A stretch of 57,801 bases of DNA, from positions 1 through 57,801 of the forward strand of contig JAETTP010000010.1 in the NCBI GenBank assembly GCA_021769035.1, read 5' to 3'. This DNA comes from Bacillota bacterium (GTDB lineage: Bacteria > Bacillota > Dehalobacteriia > UBA4068 > UBA4997). The position numbers were made by a program, and so were the translations under genes. Under the pieces are notes generated by a model, which saw only the letters and a program-made list of their open reading frames with translations, was not told the DNA's origin and ran no database searches. Positions 26,519 to 34,201 of the stretch are shown piece after piece (within the stretch, counting starts at the first letter, position 1; every line of letters begins with the position of its first letter).

Positions 26519-27400
26519 ATGCAAAAAAAATACAACAAAGCTTTCTTATTTATATTAGCGGCTCTGCTGCTGGCCCTGAGCATGCCGCAAGCCCTGCTGG
26601 CTGTGGATATGCCAACAGCCTCCGGCACGGCCACCAAATCCTGCGATAAGGCCACCATTGATTACTCCAACACCTCCGACGGCTATGTGATGGCCCAGTT
26701 TACGGCCAACACCGGCAAGCGTATTCGGGCCCAGGTGGTTGGGCCGAAAACAACCTATACATATGAGCTGCCGCCGCAAAAATGGATTACTTTTCCCCTT
26801 TCCGACGGCAACGGCGATTACAAGGTGACGGTTTTTGAAAACACCACGGAAAACAAATATGCCACGGTGGTTTCGGCCAGCTTCAAGGTGACGCTGACCG
26901 ATGAGTTTGCGCCTTTTTTGCGCCCAAATCAATATGTGGATTACGCCAACGCTCCCAGCACCACCAAAAAAGCGGCGGAGCTGTTGCAGGGCGAAACCAA
27001 CGACCTGAAAAAGATTGAAAAAATCTACAATTACGTGGTAGACAACTTTACCTACGACACGGAAAAAGCCAAAAGCGTCGCCAGTGGCTACCTGCCGGTG
27101 CTAGACAGCGTTTTGGCAGCCAAAAAAGGCATCTGCTTTGATTACGCCTCCGTGATGACAGGCATGCTACGCAGCCAGGGGATTCCCTGCAAGCTGGTGG
27201 TTGGCTATGCCGGCACTGCCTATCACGCCTGGATTAGCGTTTGGACCAAGGAAACCGGCTGGATTGACAATGCCATTCAGTTTAACGGCACCAGTTGGCA
27301 GAGAATGGACCCTACCTTTGCTTCATCCGGCAAAAAGAGTGAAACAATTATGAAATATATTGGTGACGGTAAAAACTACACCACCAAATATTTATACTAA
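26519..27400 (+). CDS. Secreted transglutaminase-like cysteine protease-fold protein
   Basis: 293 residues. A signal peptide (basic KKK head, hydrophobic core 8-27, cleavage near LLAVD) is followed by a beta-rich domain of about 100 residues, then a transglutaminase-like domain. The catalytic triad fits C206 (KGICFDYAS), H236 (AYHAWISVW) and D264 (RMDPTFA). Such proteins act outside the cell on peptides or proteins; the substrate is unknown. GAGAGGGG precedes the ATG. An upstream in-frame extension to 26312 runs through the promoter and is rejected. Followed by a hairpin terminator and the pilus-like operon. Confidence 0.9.
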   Translation: MQKKYNKAFLFILAALLLALSMPQALLAVDMPTASGTATKSCDKATIDYSNTSDGYVMAQFTANTGKRIRAQVVGPKTTYTYELPPQKWITFPLSDGNGDYKVTVFENTTENKYATVVSASFKVTLTDEFAPFLRPNQYVDYANAPSTTKKAAELLQGETNDLKKIEKIYNYVVDNFTYDTEKAKSVASGYLPVLDSVLAAKKGICFDYASVMTGMLRSQGIPCKLVVGYAGTAYHAWISVWTKETGWIDNAIQFNGTSWQRMDPTFASSGKKSETIMKYIGDGKNYTTKYLY

Positions 27401-27408
27401 AACATTTT

Positions 27409-27437
27409 GGCCGGCTTAGCTTAACGCCAAGTCGGCC
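27409..27437 (+). terminator. Hairpin terminator after the transglutaminase-like gene
   Basis: 9-bp stem GGCCGGCTT / AAGTCGGCC (one G-T pair), 11-base loop, followed by TGAAATTTT. The T-run is weak, so some read-through into the pilus-like operon is possible; I see no clear separate promoter between it and 27473. Confidence 0.6.
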
Positions 27438-27472
27438 TGAAATTTTACAGATTTTTTGAATAGGAGTTAGAT

Positions 27473-28516
27473 ATGAAAACACAAATTTTGTCTAATGAAG
27501 AAATCGCTTCGTTTTGCCTGGAACTATCCCTGCTGCTGCACGCCGGCGTCAGCGCCAGCGACGGCCTCACCCTGTTGGCCGAGGAAAGCTCCGCTGAGCA
27601 TAAGCAGCTGTTAAACGGACTGGCTCTGCAAATTGACGACGGCAACACCCTGCCCCAGGCCTTGAAAGACAGCGGCCGCTTCCCGGCTTACGTCTGCGGC
27701 CTGCTGGAGGTTGGCGAACAATCCGGCCACACCGAGGAGGCCCTCTCCGCCCTGGCTCAGTACTATGAGGGCCGGGGGCGCCTGGATAAACGTATCCGCA
27801 GCGCACTGCTTTATCCGGCAGTAATGCTGCTTTTAATGCTGCTGGTGATTGCGGTGCTTCTGATTAAGGTTCTGCCTATCTTTAACGACGTTTACACCTC
27901 GCTGGGAGGCAGCCTGAGCGGCGTGGCCGGCATGCTGCTGAGCGTGGGCCAAGGCCTGGACGCCGCTATGCCGGTGCTTTGGCTACTGTTGGCTTTGCTG
28001 GTGGTGTTTGTAACCGTGTTCGCCGTTTCCCCCTCTTTCCGCAGCAGTTTAACCGCTGCCTGGCAAAAGAACAGCGGCGACAAGGGCCTGGCCAACCAAA
28101 TTAACACCGCCCGTCTGGCGCAGGCTTTGGCAATGGGTATGTCCAGCGGCCTGCCGATGGAGCAAGCCTTGGAGCTGGCCGAGGGCTTGGTGGTTGATAT
28201 TCCCTCCGCTCAAAAACGCTGCCAAAACTGCCGTCAGCTTTTGGATAACGGCCACAGCCTCAGCGAAGCCCTACGCGAAAGCAAAATGCTACCGGCCAGC
28301 CAATGCCGGCTGCTGGAGCTAGGCCAGCGCAGCGGCCTGGCCGACAGCACCATGAACAAAATCGCGGAAAGCATGGCCGAAGCCAGTGAGGCCGCCCTGG
28401 AAGACACCGTCAGCCGGGTGGAACCGGCCTTGGTTTTCGTCTGCTCCCTGTTGGTGGGCCTGATTTTGCTTTCGGTTATGCTGCCTTTGATGAATATAAT
28501 GTCAGCTATTGGCTAA
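27473..28516 (+). CDS. Type II secretion F / PilC-like inner-membrane platform protein
   Basis: 347 residues with two T2SSF repeats. Three membrane helices (about 112-133, 165-187, 319-341) separate two cytoplasmic helical domains (ELSLLLHAGVSASDGLTLLAEE and ARLAQALAMGMSSGLPMEQALELAE), and LLELGQRSGLADSTM is the family signature. It should anchor pilus assembly in the membrane and contact the ATPase. GGAG lies before the ATG. First gene of the seven-gene operon ending in a sortase. Confidence 0.92.
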   Translation: MKTQILSNEEIASFCLELSLLLHAGVSASDGLTLLAEESSAEHKQLLNGLALQIDDGNTLPQALKDSGRFPAYVCGLLEVGEQSGHTEEALSALAQYYEGRGRLDKRIRSALLYPAVMLLLMLLVIAVLLIKVLPIFNDVYTSLGGSLSGVAGMLLSVGQGLDAAMPVLWLLLALLVVFVTVFAVSPSFRSSLTAAWQKNSGDKGLANQINTARLAQALAMGMSSGLPMEQALELAEGLVVDIPSAQKRCQNCRQLLDNGHSLSEALRESKMLPASQCRLLELGQRSGLADSTMNKIAESMAEASEAALEDTVSRVEPALVFVCSLLVGLILLSVMLPLMNIMSAIG

Positions 28517-28551
28517 AAAAATTTGGCTGATCTGAATAAAAGAGGACTAAT

Positions 28552-28872
28552 ATGAAAAAGAGCAATTTTTCTCTTTCAACTTTGTTGAAAGGACTGTTTC
28601 TGCCCGTTTTGGCAGCGGTATTTCTCTTCTGTTTTGCTACAGCGGTAAACAGCCTGAGCGCCGGCCGGCAGGATGAAACCCAGCAACAGTTAGAAGCCGC
28701 CCTGCGCCGGGCCTGCGTGGCCTGCTACGCCACCGAGGGCATTTACCCGCCCAACCTGGCCTATCTGAAAGAACATTACGGCATTCAAATTGACGAGGAT
28801 AATTATGTTGTACGTTATGACATTTTTGCTGAGAATTTAATGCCGGATATTACCGTGCTAACTAACTATTAA
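28552..28872 (+). CDS. Small membrane-anchored protein of the pilus-like operon
   Basis: 106 residues: a basic head, one helix at about 14-33, then a small domain containing LRRACVACYATEGIYPPNL and LKEHYGIQIDEDNYVV. The N-terminal helix followed by a compact domain is pilin-like, but the usual prepilin cleavage motif (G then F/M-T-x-x-E) is absent. AGAGGA precedes the ATG. No named family recognised. Confidence 0.85.
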   Translation: MKKSNFSLSTLLKGLFLPVLAAVFLFCFATAVNSLSAGRQDETQQQLEAALRRACVACYATEGIYPPNLAYLKEHYGIQIDEDNYVVRYDIFAENLMPDITVLTNY

Positions 28873-28902
28873 ACTTCTGAAAAGTTTTCGGAGAAAAAGA
28901 TA

Positions 28903-29379
28903 ATGAAACAAACGACCATTAAACATCATTTGGACGGTTTGCTGGCGCTCATTCTCTTTGGCGTGTTTGCGGTGAGTATTCTGGGGGTGCTACTGTGCGG
29001 CGCCGACGCCTACAACCGCCTGACACAGAGGGATCAGGCCGCTTACGAGCATCGCACCGGCCTGCAATACGTGGCTGCCAGGGTACGCCAGGCCGATGCC
29101 GCCGGTGAAATCCGGGTGGAACCATTTGGAGATATTGACGCACTAGTGCTGGGACAGGAATACCTAACCCGCGTCTACTATTACGACGGCTATATTATGG
29201 AGCTTTACGCCGACGCTTCAGCAGAACTGGAACCGCAGGACGGCGAAAAAATTCTGCCGGCTGCCGGCTTAGATTTCAGCCTGACAGATGATCTGCTCAA
29301 CATCAGCTTCACAGATAGCCAGGGCAACGCGGACACCCTGTTGCTTAATTTGCGCAGCCAAAAGGAGGCGGAGCAATGA
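28903..29379 (+). CDS. DUF4860-like membrane-anchored protein
   Basis: 158 residues. One N-terminal helix (about 10-31) and a beta-rich extracytoplasmic domain (YVAARVRQADAAGEIRVEPF, LTRVYYYDGYIMELYADA). This looks like DUF4860, found with clostridial pilus-like loci. It overlaps the next gene by 4 bases (ATGA). Role probably a minor pilin-like subunit (inference). Confidence 0.85.
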   Translation: MKQTTIKHHLDGLLALILFGVFAVSILGVLLCGADAYNRLTQRDQAAYEHRTGLQYVAARVRQADAAGEIRVEPFGDIDALVLGQEYLTRVYYYDGYIMELYADASAELEPQDGEKILPAAGLDFSLTDDLLNISFTDSQGNADTLLLNLRSQKEAEQ

Positions 29380-29801
29380 AAAGTAAAGCACCACTGGTTT
29401 TAATGGAACAAATTATCATGCTGCTGGTGTTTGCCTTAGCCGCCGCCATCTGTCTGCAAGCCTTCATCAAGGCTGACGCTCTGTCCTCAGCCAGCGCGGC
29501 CAGAGATAAGGCTGTGGTTCTGGCCCAATCCACAGCGGAGCTTATCCGCAGCAATGAGGGCGATTTAGCTAAGGCCGCCGAGCAAATGGCGGCCAGCTGT
29601 GAACAAGGCCTGTTGCAGCAAACCTACGACCACGATTGGCAACCCAGCGCGGCCGCCAACCCGGCCTTTACGTTGCAAGCCCATATTACGCCCAACGACT
29701 CGCCCGGTCTGGGAACTGCCAAAGTGCTGGTTTTGGATGAGCAACAGCAAACTATTTTTGAATTGGATATAGCCTGGCAGGAGGTGGAAGCCAATGCCTG
29801 A
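29376..29801 (+). CDS. Pseudopilin-like membrane protein
   Basis: 141 residues. A hydrophobic N-terminal helix (LMEQIIMLLVFALAAAICLQ, about 9-28) resembles pilin helices, with a glutamate near its start as in true pilins, but no clear prepilin peptidase site. The soluble domain is small and has one cysteine (ASCEQG). It overlaps the next gene by 8 bases. Confidence 0.82.
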   Translation: MKSKAPLVLMEQIIMLLVFALAAAICLQAFIKADALSSASAARDKAVVLAQSTAELIRSNEGDLAKAAEQMAASCEQGLLQQTYDHDWQPSAAANPAFTLQAHITPNDSPGLGTAKVLVLDEQQQTIFELDIAWQEVEANA

Positions 29802-30309
29802 GAGTAATTACAGCTCCCCTAACAAAACCAATTTCCGGCCGCCGGCTTTGGGCGGCGTTTCCCTGCTGGTAATTTTTGCCGTGCTCTGCCTGACAGTTTT
29901 TGCCCTGCTCAGCCTTTCCACTGTGCAGGCCGATTGCCGCCTGGCCGACGCCACGGCCCAGTCTGTCAGCGATTATTATGCAGCAGATCTGGAGGCCCAA
30001 ACGATTTTGGCCAAATTGCGCCAGGGCGAGCGACCAGCCAACGTGACTGTTGAAGCCGCCGAAGCTGCTTCATCGGAAAACAATACCATTGCGCCGGAGG
30101 CCGAAAATGCGGATAGCGCAGTTAATTCCAACAGCCCAAGCGCGCTTTACAGCTACACCTGCCAAATTTCCGAAACCCAAAATTTGCAGGTGCAGGTGCG
30201 CCTAAACCCACAAACCGGCGCTTACTCCGTTTTGCGCTGGCAAGCCGTACCCAGCGGCAACTGGCAAACGGAGGACACCCTGGAGCTTTGGGACGGCACC
30301 ACGTTTTAA
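29794..30309 (+). CDS. PilX-like or unnamed membrane-anchored protein
   Basis: 171 residues: a 20-residue polar head, one helix (about 21-45), then a soluble domain with an acidic Ser/Ala/Glu/Asn-rich stretch (about 80-115) and a beta-rich C-terminus. AGGAGGTGG precedes the ATG. The N-terminal topology resembles PilX-type minor pilins; sequence does not give a firm family. Confidence 0.82.
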   Translation: MPESNYSSPNKTNFRPPALGGVSLLVIFAVLCLTVFALLSLSTVQADCRLADATAQSVSDYYAADLEAQTILAKLRQGERPANVTVEAAEAASSENNTIAPEAENADSAVNSNSPSALYSYTCQISETQNLQVQVRLNPQTGAYSVLRWQAVPSGNWQTEDTLELWDGTTF

Positions 30310-30321
30310 GGAGGTTTTAAG

Positions 30322-31380
30322 ATGGAGGATTTAAATTATTACTTGCAGCGGGCCGTCAAAGACGGCGCATCTGATTTGTTTTTTATCGCCGGCAGCCCGG
30401 CTTGCGAAAAGCTGGAAAAGGCGGTGCAACATATTAATGATGAAAGGCTGTTTTCCACTCACACGGAGGAGCTGGTTAAACAGCTTTACATACAGGCCGG
30501 ACGTTCCTCCGACAAATTGATGGAAAACGGCGATGACGATTTTTCCTTTGCCGTGCCGGGCTTGGCCCGCTTCCGCGTCAACACCTATCGTCAACGGGGT
30601 TCTTTGGCCGCCGTGGTGCGCGTGGTGGCTTTCAATATCCCGGATTGGCGGGCATTAAATATCCCGGAGCAGGTTATCAACTTAGCCAACCAAACCAATG
30701 GTATGATATTGGTAACCGGCACCGCCGGCAGCGGCAAGTCCACCACCCAGGCCTGCATAATCGACCAAATTAACAAAACGCGGGCCTGCCATATCGTTAC
30801 CCTGGAAGACCCAATCGAATATCTGCACCGCAACCAGCTCAGCATTATCAGCCAGCGGGAAATTGCTATCGACACCAACGATTATCTGGCGGCCCTGCGG
30901 GCCTGCCTGCGCCAAGCGCCAGACGTTATCCTGCTAGGTGAGATGCGCGACCATGAAACAATCCGCACCGCGATGACGGCGGCGGAAACCGGCCACCTGC
31001 TGATTGCCACCCTGCACACCAGCGGCGCCGTCAACACCGTCGACCGCATTGTGGATACTTTCCCGGAGGGCCAGCAGGAACAAATCCGCGTGCAGCTGAG
31101 TATGGTGCTCAGCACCGTGGTTTCCCAACAGCTGTTGCCGGCGCTGGACGGCTCGTTGGTACCGGCTTACGAAATAATGCATATGAACAATAATATTCGT
31201 ACCCTTATCCGCGAAAACAAAACCTACCAAATTGACAACGCCATCACCACTGGCAGTCGCGAAGGCATGATTAGTATGGATCAATCAATTTACAATCTGT
31301 ATCAGGCTGGTAAAATCAGCAAGCAAACTGCTTTAGATTACGCCAGCAATCTGGAATACATTCAACGCCGTCTTGGTTAA
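30322..31380 (+). CDS. PilT-like type IV pilus retraction ATPase
   Basis: 352 residues. Domains in order: PAS-like N-terminal domain, then the RecA-like core. Walker A is TGTAGSGKSTT, the Asp box follows at VTLEDPIEYLH, Walker B is VILLGEMRD with ETIRTAMTAAETGHLLIATLHTS (His box), and IRTLIRENKTYQID matches the PilT-specific AIRNLIRE motif. This marks it as PilT, not PilB. Strong AAGGAGG site. No PilB-like assembly ATPase is found in the operon. Confidence 0.94.
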   Translation: MEDLNYYLQRAVKDGASDLFFIAGSPACEKLEKAVQHINDERLFSTHTEELVKQLYIQAGRSSDKLMENGDDDFSFAVPGLARFRVNTYRQRGSLAAVVRVVAFNIPDWRALNIPEQVINLANQTNGMILVTGTAGSGKSTTQACIIDQINKTRACHIVTLEDPIEYLHRNQLSIISQREIAIDTNDYLAALRACLRQAPDVILLGEMRDHETIRTAMTAAETGHLLIATLHTSGAVNTVDRIVDTFPEGQQEQIRVQLSMVLSTVVSQQLLPALDGSLVPAYEIMHMNNNIRTLIRENKTYQIDNAITTGSREGMISMDQSIYNLYQAGKISKQTALDYASNLEYIQRRLG

Positions 31381-31405
31381 TTACAACCAATTTACGAGGT
31401 GAATT

Positions 31406-32434
31406 ATGATCCAAAATCCACGTTTACGCCGTGCTTTAATTATCATTTTCGGCCTGATTTTTGTAATCAGCCTCACCGGATTGCTCACCAATTTGCTTGC
31501 TTATCGGCAAGGCGAGCAGATTTATCAGGAAGCCGCCAATTTAGTTAAACTGCCGGACCTCACCAATATCACCCCTGTCCCGGCCATAACCGAGCAACCG
31601 AATGTTTCAAAGCCGGAGCAACCTTATATTGACCCCTATGCCGACGCCTTGCAAGCGATGGATTTTAGCGCCCTGCGAGAGGTCAATCCAGAGGTGCTTG
31701 GCTGGCTGCTGATACCCAACACCGGCATATCCTATCCCCTGCTGCAACACGCCAACAATGAATACTATCTGGGCCACAGCTGGAACAAATCCCGCAGCCC
31801 GGTGGGCGCTATTTTCCTGGACAGTCAATGCAGCAAAAGCCTGAGCAACTTCAACACCATAATTTACGGGCACCGTATGAATAACGGCTCCATGTTCACA
31901 CCGCTGGCCAAATACAAAAATCAAAGCTACTGGCAAGAGCACCCCACCGTTTATATAACCGACGACAACGGCACTCATCGCTACGAAATTTTTGCCGCCT
32001 ATGAGGTAAGCACCAGCGGCATGACCTACGCGCTGAGTTTTTCCACCGACGCCGGCAAACAAAAATTCATCAATTACTGCCTGGAACAATCGCTGATTGA
32101 AACCGGCTTGCAGCCCACCGTCAACGACTATATTTTAACCCTTTCCACCTGCACCGGGCACGGACACGCCACCCGTTGGGTGGTGCAGGCTATGCGTAAA
32201 AGCGAGGAAGCGTCAACTACTCCGCCGGAGGATGAGCCGACAAACAAAAGCGAAACAGCTGACGATGACGACTCCAATCAGGTTGAAAATCAAGACCAGG
32301 CAATAGAGCCGGAACAAAATTCATCTGATACAGAAAATGCCCCAGAGCAAACTCAGAATGAAGCTGAATCAGACCAAACCGACGAACCAAATCCAGAAAC
32401 CGGCCTGACAGACCTACTCCCCACAGCCAACTAG
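31406..32434 (+). CDS. Class B sortase with acidic C-terminal tail
   Basis: 342 residues. A membrane helix at about 9-31 anchors it; the sortase domain has catalytic His in IIYGHRMNNGS (about 154), Cys in TLSTCTGHG (about 248) and Arg in ATRWVVQ (about 255), and the class B helix before the core. Residues about 268-342 form a Glu/Asp/Gln/Asn/Pro tail that normal sortases lack. It should cut a sorting signal and fix a protein to peptidoglycan or join subunits; the substrate is not in this window. CGAGGTGA precedes the ATG. Confidence 0.93.
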   Translation: MIQNPRLRRALIIIFGLIFVISLTGLLTNLLAYRQGEQIYQEAANLVKLPDLTNITPVPAITEQPNVSKPEQPYIDPYADALQAMDFSALREVNPEVLGWLLIPNTGISYPLLQHANNEYYLGHSWNKSRSPVGAIFLDSQCSKSLSNFNTIIYGHRMNNGSMFTPLAKYKNQSYWQEHPTVYITDDNGTHRYEIFAAYEVSTSGMTYALSFSTDAGKQKFINYCLEQSLIETGLQPTVNDYILTLSTCTGHGHATRWVVQAMRKSEEASTTPPEDEPTNKSETADDDDSNQVENQDQAIEPEQNSSDTENAPEQTQNEAESDQTDEPNPETGLTDLLPTAN

Positions 32435-32450
32435 ACTGTGGGGAGTTTTT
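32416..32450 (+). terminator. Intrinsic terminator of the sortase operon
   Basis: 11-bp stem ACTCCCCACAG / CTGTGGGGAGT, loop of 9 holding the sortase stop codon, then a TTTTT run. Confidence 0.9.
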
Positions 32451-32462
32451 GTTCAAGCTAGG

Positions 32463-33152
32463 TCACACCTTTTGATACAAGGCGCAAAGTTGCTCAACCG
32501 AAATATCAAGGTCCGCCGCACCTGAGGACACCACTGCAATAACCGGAACTTGAGCCAACGGCTCCACCATCTGTCGGTTATCCTCGTGCAGGCGGTTGCC
32601 CGCCTCAAAATTGTTCAAAACCACGCCGGCCACCGGAATATCCAGGCTGCGCATATAAGCACAGGTGGTGACAATAGCATTAAGCGTGCCCAGGCCAGCG
32701 TCGGCCACCACCAACGCCGGCAAATGCAAAGCCAGAATAATATCCGTCAACATCAGCCGCTGCTCAGCGTCGTAACGAATTGGGCAGGCAATGCCGCCGC
32801 TGCCCTCCATTGTTACATAAGCATATTTTTGGCAAACCGCCGCAAAATCCCTCTGAACACGCGGCAGTTCCACTGGGCTACCCTCCAGCTGGGCCGCCAA
32901 ATGCGGTGAAACGGCATTTTCATAGATATAGGAAACCATTTCTGCATAGCTTTGGCCAGTTTGCGCCACTTGCTGCACATAATCTGCATCGCCCGGCACC
33001 AGCACGCCGTCCCGATATTCCGCCCCGCTTAGGGCAGCTTTGTAATAGCCAGCCTTCAGCCCGGCCTGCACCAGCTTCTTCACCAGCAAGGCAGTCACAT
33101 AGGTTTTGCCCACATCGGTGCCAGTAGCCGTGATAAAAAGCCCTTTACTCAT
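32463..33152 (-). CDS. bioD: Dethiobiotin synthetase
   Basis: ATP-dependent carboxylation of DAPA to dethiobiotin. 229 residues. Walker A TATGTDVGKTYV, then YKAALSG and VTMEGSGGIACPI fit the family; DAGLGTLNAIVTT and VLNNFEAGNRLHED are the nucleotide-side motifs. ATG at 33152 (AGGAGGG upstream) overlaps the bioB stop by 8 bases. Only bioB and bioD are here; bioA/F or pimelate genes must lie elsewhere or biotin precursors come from outside. Confidence 0.95.
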   Translation of the reverse strand: MSKGLFITATGTDVGKTYVTALLVKKLVQAGLKAGYYKAALSGAEYRDGVLVPGDADYVQQVAQTGQSYAEMVSYIYENAVSPHLAAQLEGSPVELPRVQRDFAAVCQKYAYVTMEGSGGIACPIRYDAEQRLMLTDIILALHLPALVVADAGLGTLNAIVTTCAYMRSLDIPVAGVVLNNFEAGNRLHEDNRQMVEPLAQVPVIAVVSSGAADLDISVEQLCALYQKV

Positions 33153-34131
33153 CAAGCAACGCCCTCCTGTAGCCCAGCTCGGCCAAAATTTGCTTATCGG
33201 AAGCAATCGTTTCGCCGGTGGTGGTCAGCATATCGCCGGAAATTGCCGCATTTGCGCCGGACTGAAAACAGGCCCGTCCACTATCGCCCAAAAGCTTGCG
33301 TCCGCCGGCCAACCGAATAGCCGCCTTAGGCAGAATAAAACGAAAGATTGCACAGATCCGCCGCATTTCCGCATTAGTCAGAAGCTTGTTATGCTCCAAA
33401 GGAGTGCCTGGTATTGGGTTCAGCATGTTCACCGGCACCGAGGTAACGCCCAACTCCCGCAGCTGCAAAGCCATATCGATTCTATCCTCCATGCTCTCCC
33501 CCAGCCCCATCAGGCCGCCGCTGCAAACCGAAAGCCCAGCCCGCTGCGCCGCCTGAATGGCGGCAATTTTTTCCTCAAAGCTGTGCGTAGTGCAAATTTG
33601 CGGAAAAAACTTGCGCGAGGTTTCCAAATTGTTATGTACTCGGCTAAGGCCGGCTTCTTTCAGGCGACAAAACTGCTCCTCATTTAACAGACCAAAGGAA
33701 GCGCAAATGGAGATGTCACATTCCGCCGCAAGCTGCCGGATAATCTCACAAGCCGCGTCAACCTCCTTGTCGGAAAGACGTTTCCCGGAAGTAACCAACG
33801 AAAAACGCAACACGCCTTGCTCTGCATTATATTTGGCCGCCTGCACCACCTCAGCCGCCGACAGCAACGGATACTCCTCCACATCAGTTTTATAACAGGC
33901 AGACTGCGCACAATACTGGCAGTTTTCACTGCAACGGCCGCTTTTAGCATTGATAATAGTGCAAATGTCAAAGGCGTCCTGGCAAAAATGACGGCGGATT
34001 TCGTCAGCAGCCTGACAAAGCTCCTCCAGCGGCGCTTCCAGCAGCTGCATAGCCTCCTCTTTGTCAATATTTTGCCCAGCCAAAACCTTCTCTTGTAAGC
34101 TTTTCAGCAACTTAAATTCCTCCTTACCCAT
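33145..34131 (-). CDS. bioB: Biotin synthase
   Basis: Radical SAM enzyme that inserts sulfur into dethiobiotin. 328 residues. The [4Fe-4S] motif CSENCQYC is at about residues 60-67, followed by AQSACYKTDVEEYPLL; further conserved parts include CASFGLLNEEQ, RVHNNLETS and CSGGLMGLGE. I start at the ATG at 34131 because the promoter and operator occupy 34145-34201, ruling out the open frame reaching 34182. The ATG lacks a strong ribosome site. Confidence 0.95.
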   Translation of the reverse strand: MGKEEFKLLKSLQEKVLAGQNIDKEEAMQLLEAPLEELCQAADEIRRHFCQDAFDICTIINAKSGRCSENCQYCAQSACYKTDVEEYPLLSAAEVVQAAKYNAEQGVLRFSLVTSGKRLSDKEVDAACEIIRQLAAECDISICASFGLLNEEQFCRLKEAGLSRVHNNLETSRKFFPQICTTHSFEEKIAAIQAAQRAGLSVCSGGLMGLGESMEDRIDMALQLRELGVTSVPVNMLNPIPGTPLEHNKLLTNAEMRRICAIFRFILPKAAIRLAGGRKLLGDSGRACFQSGANAAISGDMLTTTGETIASDKQILAELGYRRALLDE

Positions 34132-34144
34132 ATCAGCAAAATTA

Positions 34145-34172
34145 GTAAACCATTTATTTATATATTGTTTAC
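34145..34172 (-). promoter_or_regulatory. BirA-type biotin operator
   Basis: Inverted repeat GTAAAC (34145-34150) and GTTTAC (34167-34172), 16 bases apart. BirA sites are paired GTWAAC-like arms with about this spacing. It touches the -10 box, so biotinyl-AMP-bound BirA would block transcription. Confidence 0.75.
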
Positions 34173-34201
34173 ATTTTAGCACGGCAAAAGGAAATTGTCA
34201 A
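34173..34201 (-). promoter_or_regulatory. Promoter for bioBD
   Basis: Minus strand: -35 TTGACA (34196-34201), 17-base spacer, -10 TAAAAT (34173-34178). Confidence 0.82.

Follow-up and report, generated by a model that had tools for sequence, protein, structure and literature searches.

An eight-gene operon in the genome of a Bacillota bacterium encodes a membrane platform, a PilT-type ATPase, four small proteins that look like pilin relatives, a transglutaminase-like protein and a class B sortase. Its core of seven genes, without the sortase, is conserved well beyond its host genome and occurs in hundreds of gut Clostridia, some of which are cultured. We think it fairly probable that it encodes a PilT-driven, membrane-rooted machine in which subunits with a pilin fold keep their N-terminal tails on a membrane platform, with the transglutaminase-like protein acting outside. 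Chances are about even that it belongs to a class of its own among type IV filament-like machines, characterized by uncleaved pilin-fold subunits, PilT as the only engine and a transglutaminase-like partner. According to a recent review, four proteins are common to all type IV filament systems, namely pilins, a prepilin peptidase, an extension ATPase and a platform (PMC10191384). If such a class exists, it would be an exception to the rule by which every type IV filament comes with an extension ATPase and a prepilin peptidase. As the operon comes without an assembly motor and a processing peptidase, the definition of the minimal machine is therefore questioned. The operon makes it testable in cultured strains if a PilT-type motor alone can drive a machine and if pilin cleavage is required for assembly. 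In addition, DUF4860 can now be assigned, on the basis of a structural model, as a likely minor-pseudopilin-like protein.

The operon and its seven-gene core

The window analyzed here, with a length of 57,801 nucleotides, is one entire contig (JAETTP010000010.1) of a genome of 2.23 Mb that is assembled in 117 contigs and 98% complete (GCA_021769035.1). Eight genes are located in one direction at positions 26519-32434 of the forward strand, in the order TG (transglutaminase-like), F (platform), p1, p2, p3, p4 (small subunits), T (PilT) and class B sortase, with gaps of 72, 35, 30, -4, -8, 12 and 25 bp. A preliminary description of this DNA had started from seven tightly spaced genes at 27473-32434, three of which are coupled by overlaps of 4-8 bases. 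Coordinates, gene set and spacing were all borne out, and the overlaps are real, namely those of p2 with p3 (-4) and of p3 with p4 (-8). TG (26519-27400), which had been overlooked one gene upstream of that start, belongs to the operon and opens the conserved unit. It encodes a protein with a hydrophobic N-terminus and a transglutaminase-like domain (Transglut_core, 3.5e-24); GTG starts also occur farther upstream in its frame. Between TG and F a hairpin is found at 27404-27447 (-20.6 kcal/mol, z -2.9 for 27398-27475), a possible attenuator. The strong terminator that had been described at the end of the operon was recovered as an intrinsic terminator at 32414-32450 (-24.2 kcal/mol, z -5.1), in which the stem is followed by UUUUU. 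A close relative recorded as Peptococcaceae bacterium ABMPRH_86_1 harbors a p1 that is 92% identical.

To follow the operon across genomes, DUF4860, the family of p2, was searched in 199 genomes and was present in nine, counting its own genome. The arrangement of TG, F and p1-p4 is the same in all eight other genomes, with TG adjoining F, and T is adjacent in all but one. When distant members were included, an alignment of p1 contained no stretch conserved enough for scanning, and a closer set was used instead. Scanning one genome per species with p1 yielded at least 595 confirmed relatives, mostly from Oscillospiraceae and Lachnospiraceae, and the best 80 of these were kept with their flanks; many of the carrier genomes are metagenome assemblies. 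The order TG-F-p1-p2-p3-p4-T is complete in 73 of these best 80 of at least 595 loci, while in the remaining seven a part of the set is missing within the stretch examined or TG is displaced. TG gave 78 matches among the 80 loci, with the Cys, His and Asp motifs kept in every one of them (78/78), and the spacing between the genes in the relatives is of the coupled-operon type. Neither a description of the operon nor a mention of DUF4860 was found in the open-access papers that were searched.

The class B sortase gene (31406-32434; TIGR03064, 166.5 bits at a cut-off of 153.75) was correctly assigned in the preliminary description. It follows pilT at a distance of 25 bp and is closed by the terminator, and by position it is co-transcribed with the operon. 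Among the 80 loci, a sortase is near the operon in 14 and directly 3' of PilT in five. Based on the gene order and these counts, the core consists of the seven genes from TG to T, whereas the sortase recurs as an accessory neighbor that can be dispensed with. In the gene neighborhoods, for which a search had been proposed, DUF4860 and PilT recur in one operon, with a sortase within reach in the minority of loci given above. The view that the proteins form one set holds for the conserved core, which includes TG; the sortase is not part of it.

It had further been suggested that the sortase, as a part of the machine, covalently anchors the subunits to the wall. The position of its gene, the lack of any other sortase in the host genome, the direct adjacency to T that recurs in five of 80 loci and an internal NPQTG in p4 of its own genus would fit this idea. 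However, 66 of the 80 loci have no nearby sortase, no class B sortase was detected in several carriers, and none of p1-p4 has the C-terminal sorting signal that is expected for a sortase-assembled pilus. Anchoring of the subunits by the sortase is therefore very improbable. The NPQTG of p4 was rejected as sortase site, as it is internal, restricted to the own genus and not conserved in the sortase-adjacent loci of other genera. Class B sortases are also present in non-carriers, and their patchy co-occurrence with the operon was dropped as a functional clue.

Platform, motor and pilin-like subunits

F (27473-28516) encodes a membrane platform of the GspF/PilC/ComGB type with two T2SSF domains (2.2e-42), in agreement with the PilC-like platform noticed before. 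It aligns to the GspF profile at positions 57-401 and to the ComGB profile at 4-331 and is, judged from its sequence, a short form without the N-terminal extension of PilC. T (30322-31380) scored 406 bits with the PilT model TIGR01420 (cut-off 319), which corroborates that it was called a bona fide PilT. In comparisons with solved structures in the PDB, T matched PilT with 7e-95 and PilB with 7e-23. The ATPase motifs are largely intact, with Walker A kept in 77 of 77 and Walker B in 75 of 77 homologues. The family model, both Walker motifs and the closeness to solved PilT structures assign T to the PilT family at the level of sequence. In the PilT family, the T proteins of the operons group in a clade of their own (95/89), which is separate from the PilTs of canonical pili and distant from PilB. 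Motors of the PilT type can do more than retract, as extension of the MSHA pilus needs PilT (PMC9815625).

The four small proteins p1 (28552-28872), p2 (28903-29379), p3 (29376-29801) and p4 (29794-30309) comprise 106, 158, 141 and 171 amino acids and have one N-terminal hydrophobic region each, as expected from the small single-helix proteins of roughly 100-170 residues seen initially. At that time they were considered unrecognizable as pilins, which no longer holds given the pilin-like models of p1 and p2 and the pilin-like sequence of p3. AF2 models were made for p1 and p2. The p1 model (pLDDT 85) has a helix of 55 residues, accompanied by a second, short helix and two strands. In a fold search with Foldseek against the PDB its top three matches were type IV pilins, the best with a probability of 0.84 and an E-value of 0.58, which is not significant alone. 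In the p2 model (pLDDT 84.5) a 62-residue helix is followed by eight strands. It matched a chain of the XcpV/XcpW minor pseudopilin complex with a TM score of 0.50, a probability of 0.97 and an E-value of 0.28, again non-significant alone; this chain ranks eighth by E-value among the PDB fold matches of p2. Thus, the proposed structure prediction gave pilin-like models for p1 and p2 with Foldseek E-values above 0.1, and since the single E-values are non-significant, the support for the folds rests on the coherence of the matches. Sequence-profile comparison of p1 and p2 with the PDB gave nothing useful. A GspG/ComGC-like role is suggested for p1, in which a CYxxEGxYP motif is conserved. p2 belongs to DUF4860 (PF16152, 1.1e-22), a family without a described function, and from its GspJ/XcpW-like modeled fold it is likely a minor-pseudopilin-like protein.

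In contrast to p1 and p4, for which profile comparison with canonical pilins was weak and indicated little sequence similarity, p3 matched true pilins in register (SKAPLVLMEQ / KKGFTLVELI, P 3e-4) and is a GspI/PilV-like pilin relative. The Glu5 of pilins is kept in 35 of 35 aligned homologues as an invariant Glu11 of p3. Leader peptides of pilins end in Gly or Ala at position -1 (PMC10191384), whereas this residue is Pro in 74 of the 75 p3 homologues of the 80-locus set; it varies in more distant relatives. Gly or Ala is required by the peptidase at this place. Some p3 members gave weak matches to the ComGG and GspI-type (XpsI) models. p4 is without Glu5 and has an invariant Gly20 ahead of the helix, where GG is kept in 76 of 78 members, and one member matches PilX_N at 0.019. 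The assignment of p4 as GspK/PilX-like, made from sequence, is the least certain among the four. Taken together, it is plausible that p1-p4 stand beside GspG, GspJ, GspI and GspK as a pseudopilus set.

Assembly ATPases, prepilin peptidases and prepilins in carrier genomes

According to the preliminary description, PilB, a prepilin peptidase and class III prepilins are not recognizable in the operon, and this holds genome-wide in the 98% complete assembly. The only T2SSE ATPase above cut-off in the host genome is the PilT of the operon, and profile searches of this genome gave no Peptidase_A24 above cut-off and no N_methyl prepilin. The best A24 match (E 0.15, contig C104) was rejected, as it falls in an ABC-permease-like open reading frame. 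Control genomes gave positives in the ATPase, A24 and N_methyl searches alike. The search for pilB and pilD that had been recommended was thereby answered in the negative for the host genome. It had been left open if the missing parts are encoded elsewhere or if the operon encodes a reduced envelope machine. None of these parts was found elsewhere in the genome, and the latter is supported as a reduced pilus-like envelope machine of PilT and non-canonical subunits.

The same pattern was found in other carriers. An A24 peptidase was undetected in 30 of 50 other carriers. A single T2SSE ATPase, of the PilT type, was present in 29 of these 30, so that both A24 and any second ATPase, such as an extension ATPase of the PilB/GspE/ComGA type, are missing in 29 of the 50. 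Among these are carriers recorded as named strains, namely Oscillibacter sp. 1-3, Flintibacter muris, Colidextribacter OB.20 and O. valericigenes An860. An extra ATPase occurs in 19 of the 20 carriers with A24 vs one of the 30 without (Fisher p 1.3e-11, a value that ignores the relatedness of the genomes). Since A24 co-occurs with extra ATPases, it follows other systems and not the operon. A match to N_methyl was absent in 30 of 31 genomes that have only this system, the remaining one being marginal and below cut-off, and five genomes with canonical pili gave four to five N_methyl matches each. Within the own genus three states are found: the operon alone (G000, G006), a PilB-like ATPase together with a second PilT-sized ATPase and no DUF4860 (G001, G007, G008), and neither ATPase type (G002-G005). 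As absence was judged by Pfam profiles, a peptidase of an unrelated family could exist.

Proposed machine and alternative explanations

In the machine that we favor, F would serve as the platform in the membrane, and the sole motor would be a hexamer of PilT located below F. p1 (GspG/ComGC-like) together with p2, p3 and p4 (GspJ-, GspI- and GspK-like) would form a short, membrane-rooted pilin-fold assembly in which the N-terminal tails of the subunits are retained. By ATP hydrolysis, relayed via F, PilT would raise the assembly and lower it again, so that it moves through or against the wall. TG would work outside on the wall or on surface proteins. We infer that p1-p4 assemble and remain uncleaved, and that PilT presumably powers both directions; instead of a long pilus, the product would be a short stalk or piston. 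The conserved gene order, the coupled spacing, the own clade of T and the Pro at -1 of p3 in combination with Glu5 argue for this explanation, as do the pilin-like models and fold matches of p1 and p2 and the lack of A24, N_methyl and a second ATPase in the host genome and many other carriers. The fold-search E-values of p1 and p2, the scarce sequence similarity of p1 and p4 to canonical pilins, and the peptidase and extension ATPase ascribed to every type IV filament (PMC10191384) speak against it.

The retained tails would be contradicted if an unrecognized or shared peptidase cleaves the subunits, for example signal peptidase I in the case of p1, so that a short pilus of the ordinary kind is made. 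p4 has Gly at a possible cleavage place, and MSH systems have no own peptidase and are supposed to borrow one (PMC6668835). However, in 30 of 50 carriers there is no A24 to borrow, and the Pro at -1 of p3 is at odds with cleavage, making this explanation rather unlikely. The lack of a recognized cleavage site in p3 and of an A24 peptidase would suit a fixed complex that is not a filament, in which the four uncleaved proteins stay in the membrane in the manner of a pilus tip or priming complex and are used by PilT and F as a lever or clamp, e.g. for presenting or moving TG. Three of the four subunits indeed resemble minor or tip pilins, and the constant partner is TG. Yet the features of p1 are those of a main subunit, and platform and motor normally serve the addition or removal of subunits; we regard a fixed complex as conceivable but doubtful.

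A competence pilus for DNA uptake, in which the PilT-type motor replaces ComGA and DNA is drawn across the wall toward ComEC, was considered as well. The short ComGB-like platform and the run of small subunits recall the make-up of comGB and comGC to comGG, p3 members match ComGG weakly, and nearly all carriers have ComEC. However, ComEC is as frequent in relatives without the operon, and being present almost everywhere it is uninformative on DNA uptake. Many carriers are without the ComC peptidase or a ComGA-type ATPase, and the Com model has no place for a transglutaminase-like gene. A Com-like function is therefore quite unlikely. The operon shares with the Com pilus (comGA-GG and comC) the organization in one operon and the lack of PilMNO, and differs from it by the motor, the added transglutaminase-like gene and the lack of class III signal peptides, although p4 does keep the Gly.

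The favored PilT-driven machine also differs from the type II secretion pseudopilus (GspG-K, GspF, GspE), with which it shares subunits resembling GspJ, GspI and GspK and p1 in the place of GspG. Here, the genome is without GspE and GspO, the operon is without a secretin, the hosts are of the monoderm type and the motor is a PilT. Compared with the type IVa pilus, the operon is devoid of PilB, PilD, PilMNO and a canonical PilA and its T clade is separate, while the PilT-family motor and the PilC-homologous platform are common to both.

Motor ATPases among species of one genus

Three genomes of the genus to which the window belongs (G001, G007 and G008) encode a PilB-like ATPase together with a second, PilT-sized ATPase and lack DUF4860. 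The PilT-only operon is present in G000 and G006 of the same genus, and other species in it are without any such ATPase. Since the PilB-like pair, the PilT-only operon and the state without an ATPase alternate within one genus, this looks like replacement or alternative loss.

PilT proteins apart from the operon

In one carrier (locus L014, G180:C18:209000-225000), the genes for the transglutaminase-like protein, the GspF/PilC-type platform and the small pilin-like proteins p1 to p4 were found without an adjacent PilT gene, and a PilT is encoded approximately 38 kb away (L014/L140). This distant PilT clusters with those of canonical pili, outside the clade of the operon's ATPases, and the motor may therefore be shared or exchanged in this carrier. 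A second ATPase belonging to the operon's clade stands alone at L144:1792-2862 (G213:C10), with no other operon genes detected within 5 kb.

Features within and beside the operon

A stable hairpin (27404-27447, z -2.9) lies between the transglutaminase-like and platform genes and is possibly an attenuator separating the former from the machine genes. Two minus-strand genes (32463-34182), by eye resembling the biotin synthesis genes bioD and bioB, are oriented toward the operon; no connection with it is suggested. The class B sortase has a long, acidic C-terminal tail (32200-32434) ending in NPETGLTDLLPTAN, at the position of which the sortase of a same-genus relative carries NQETG.
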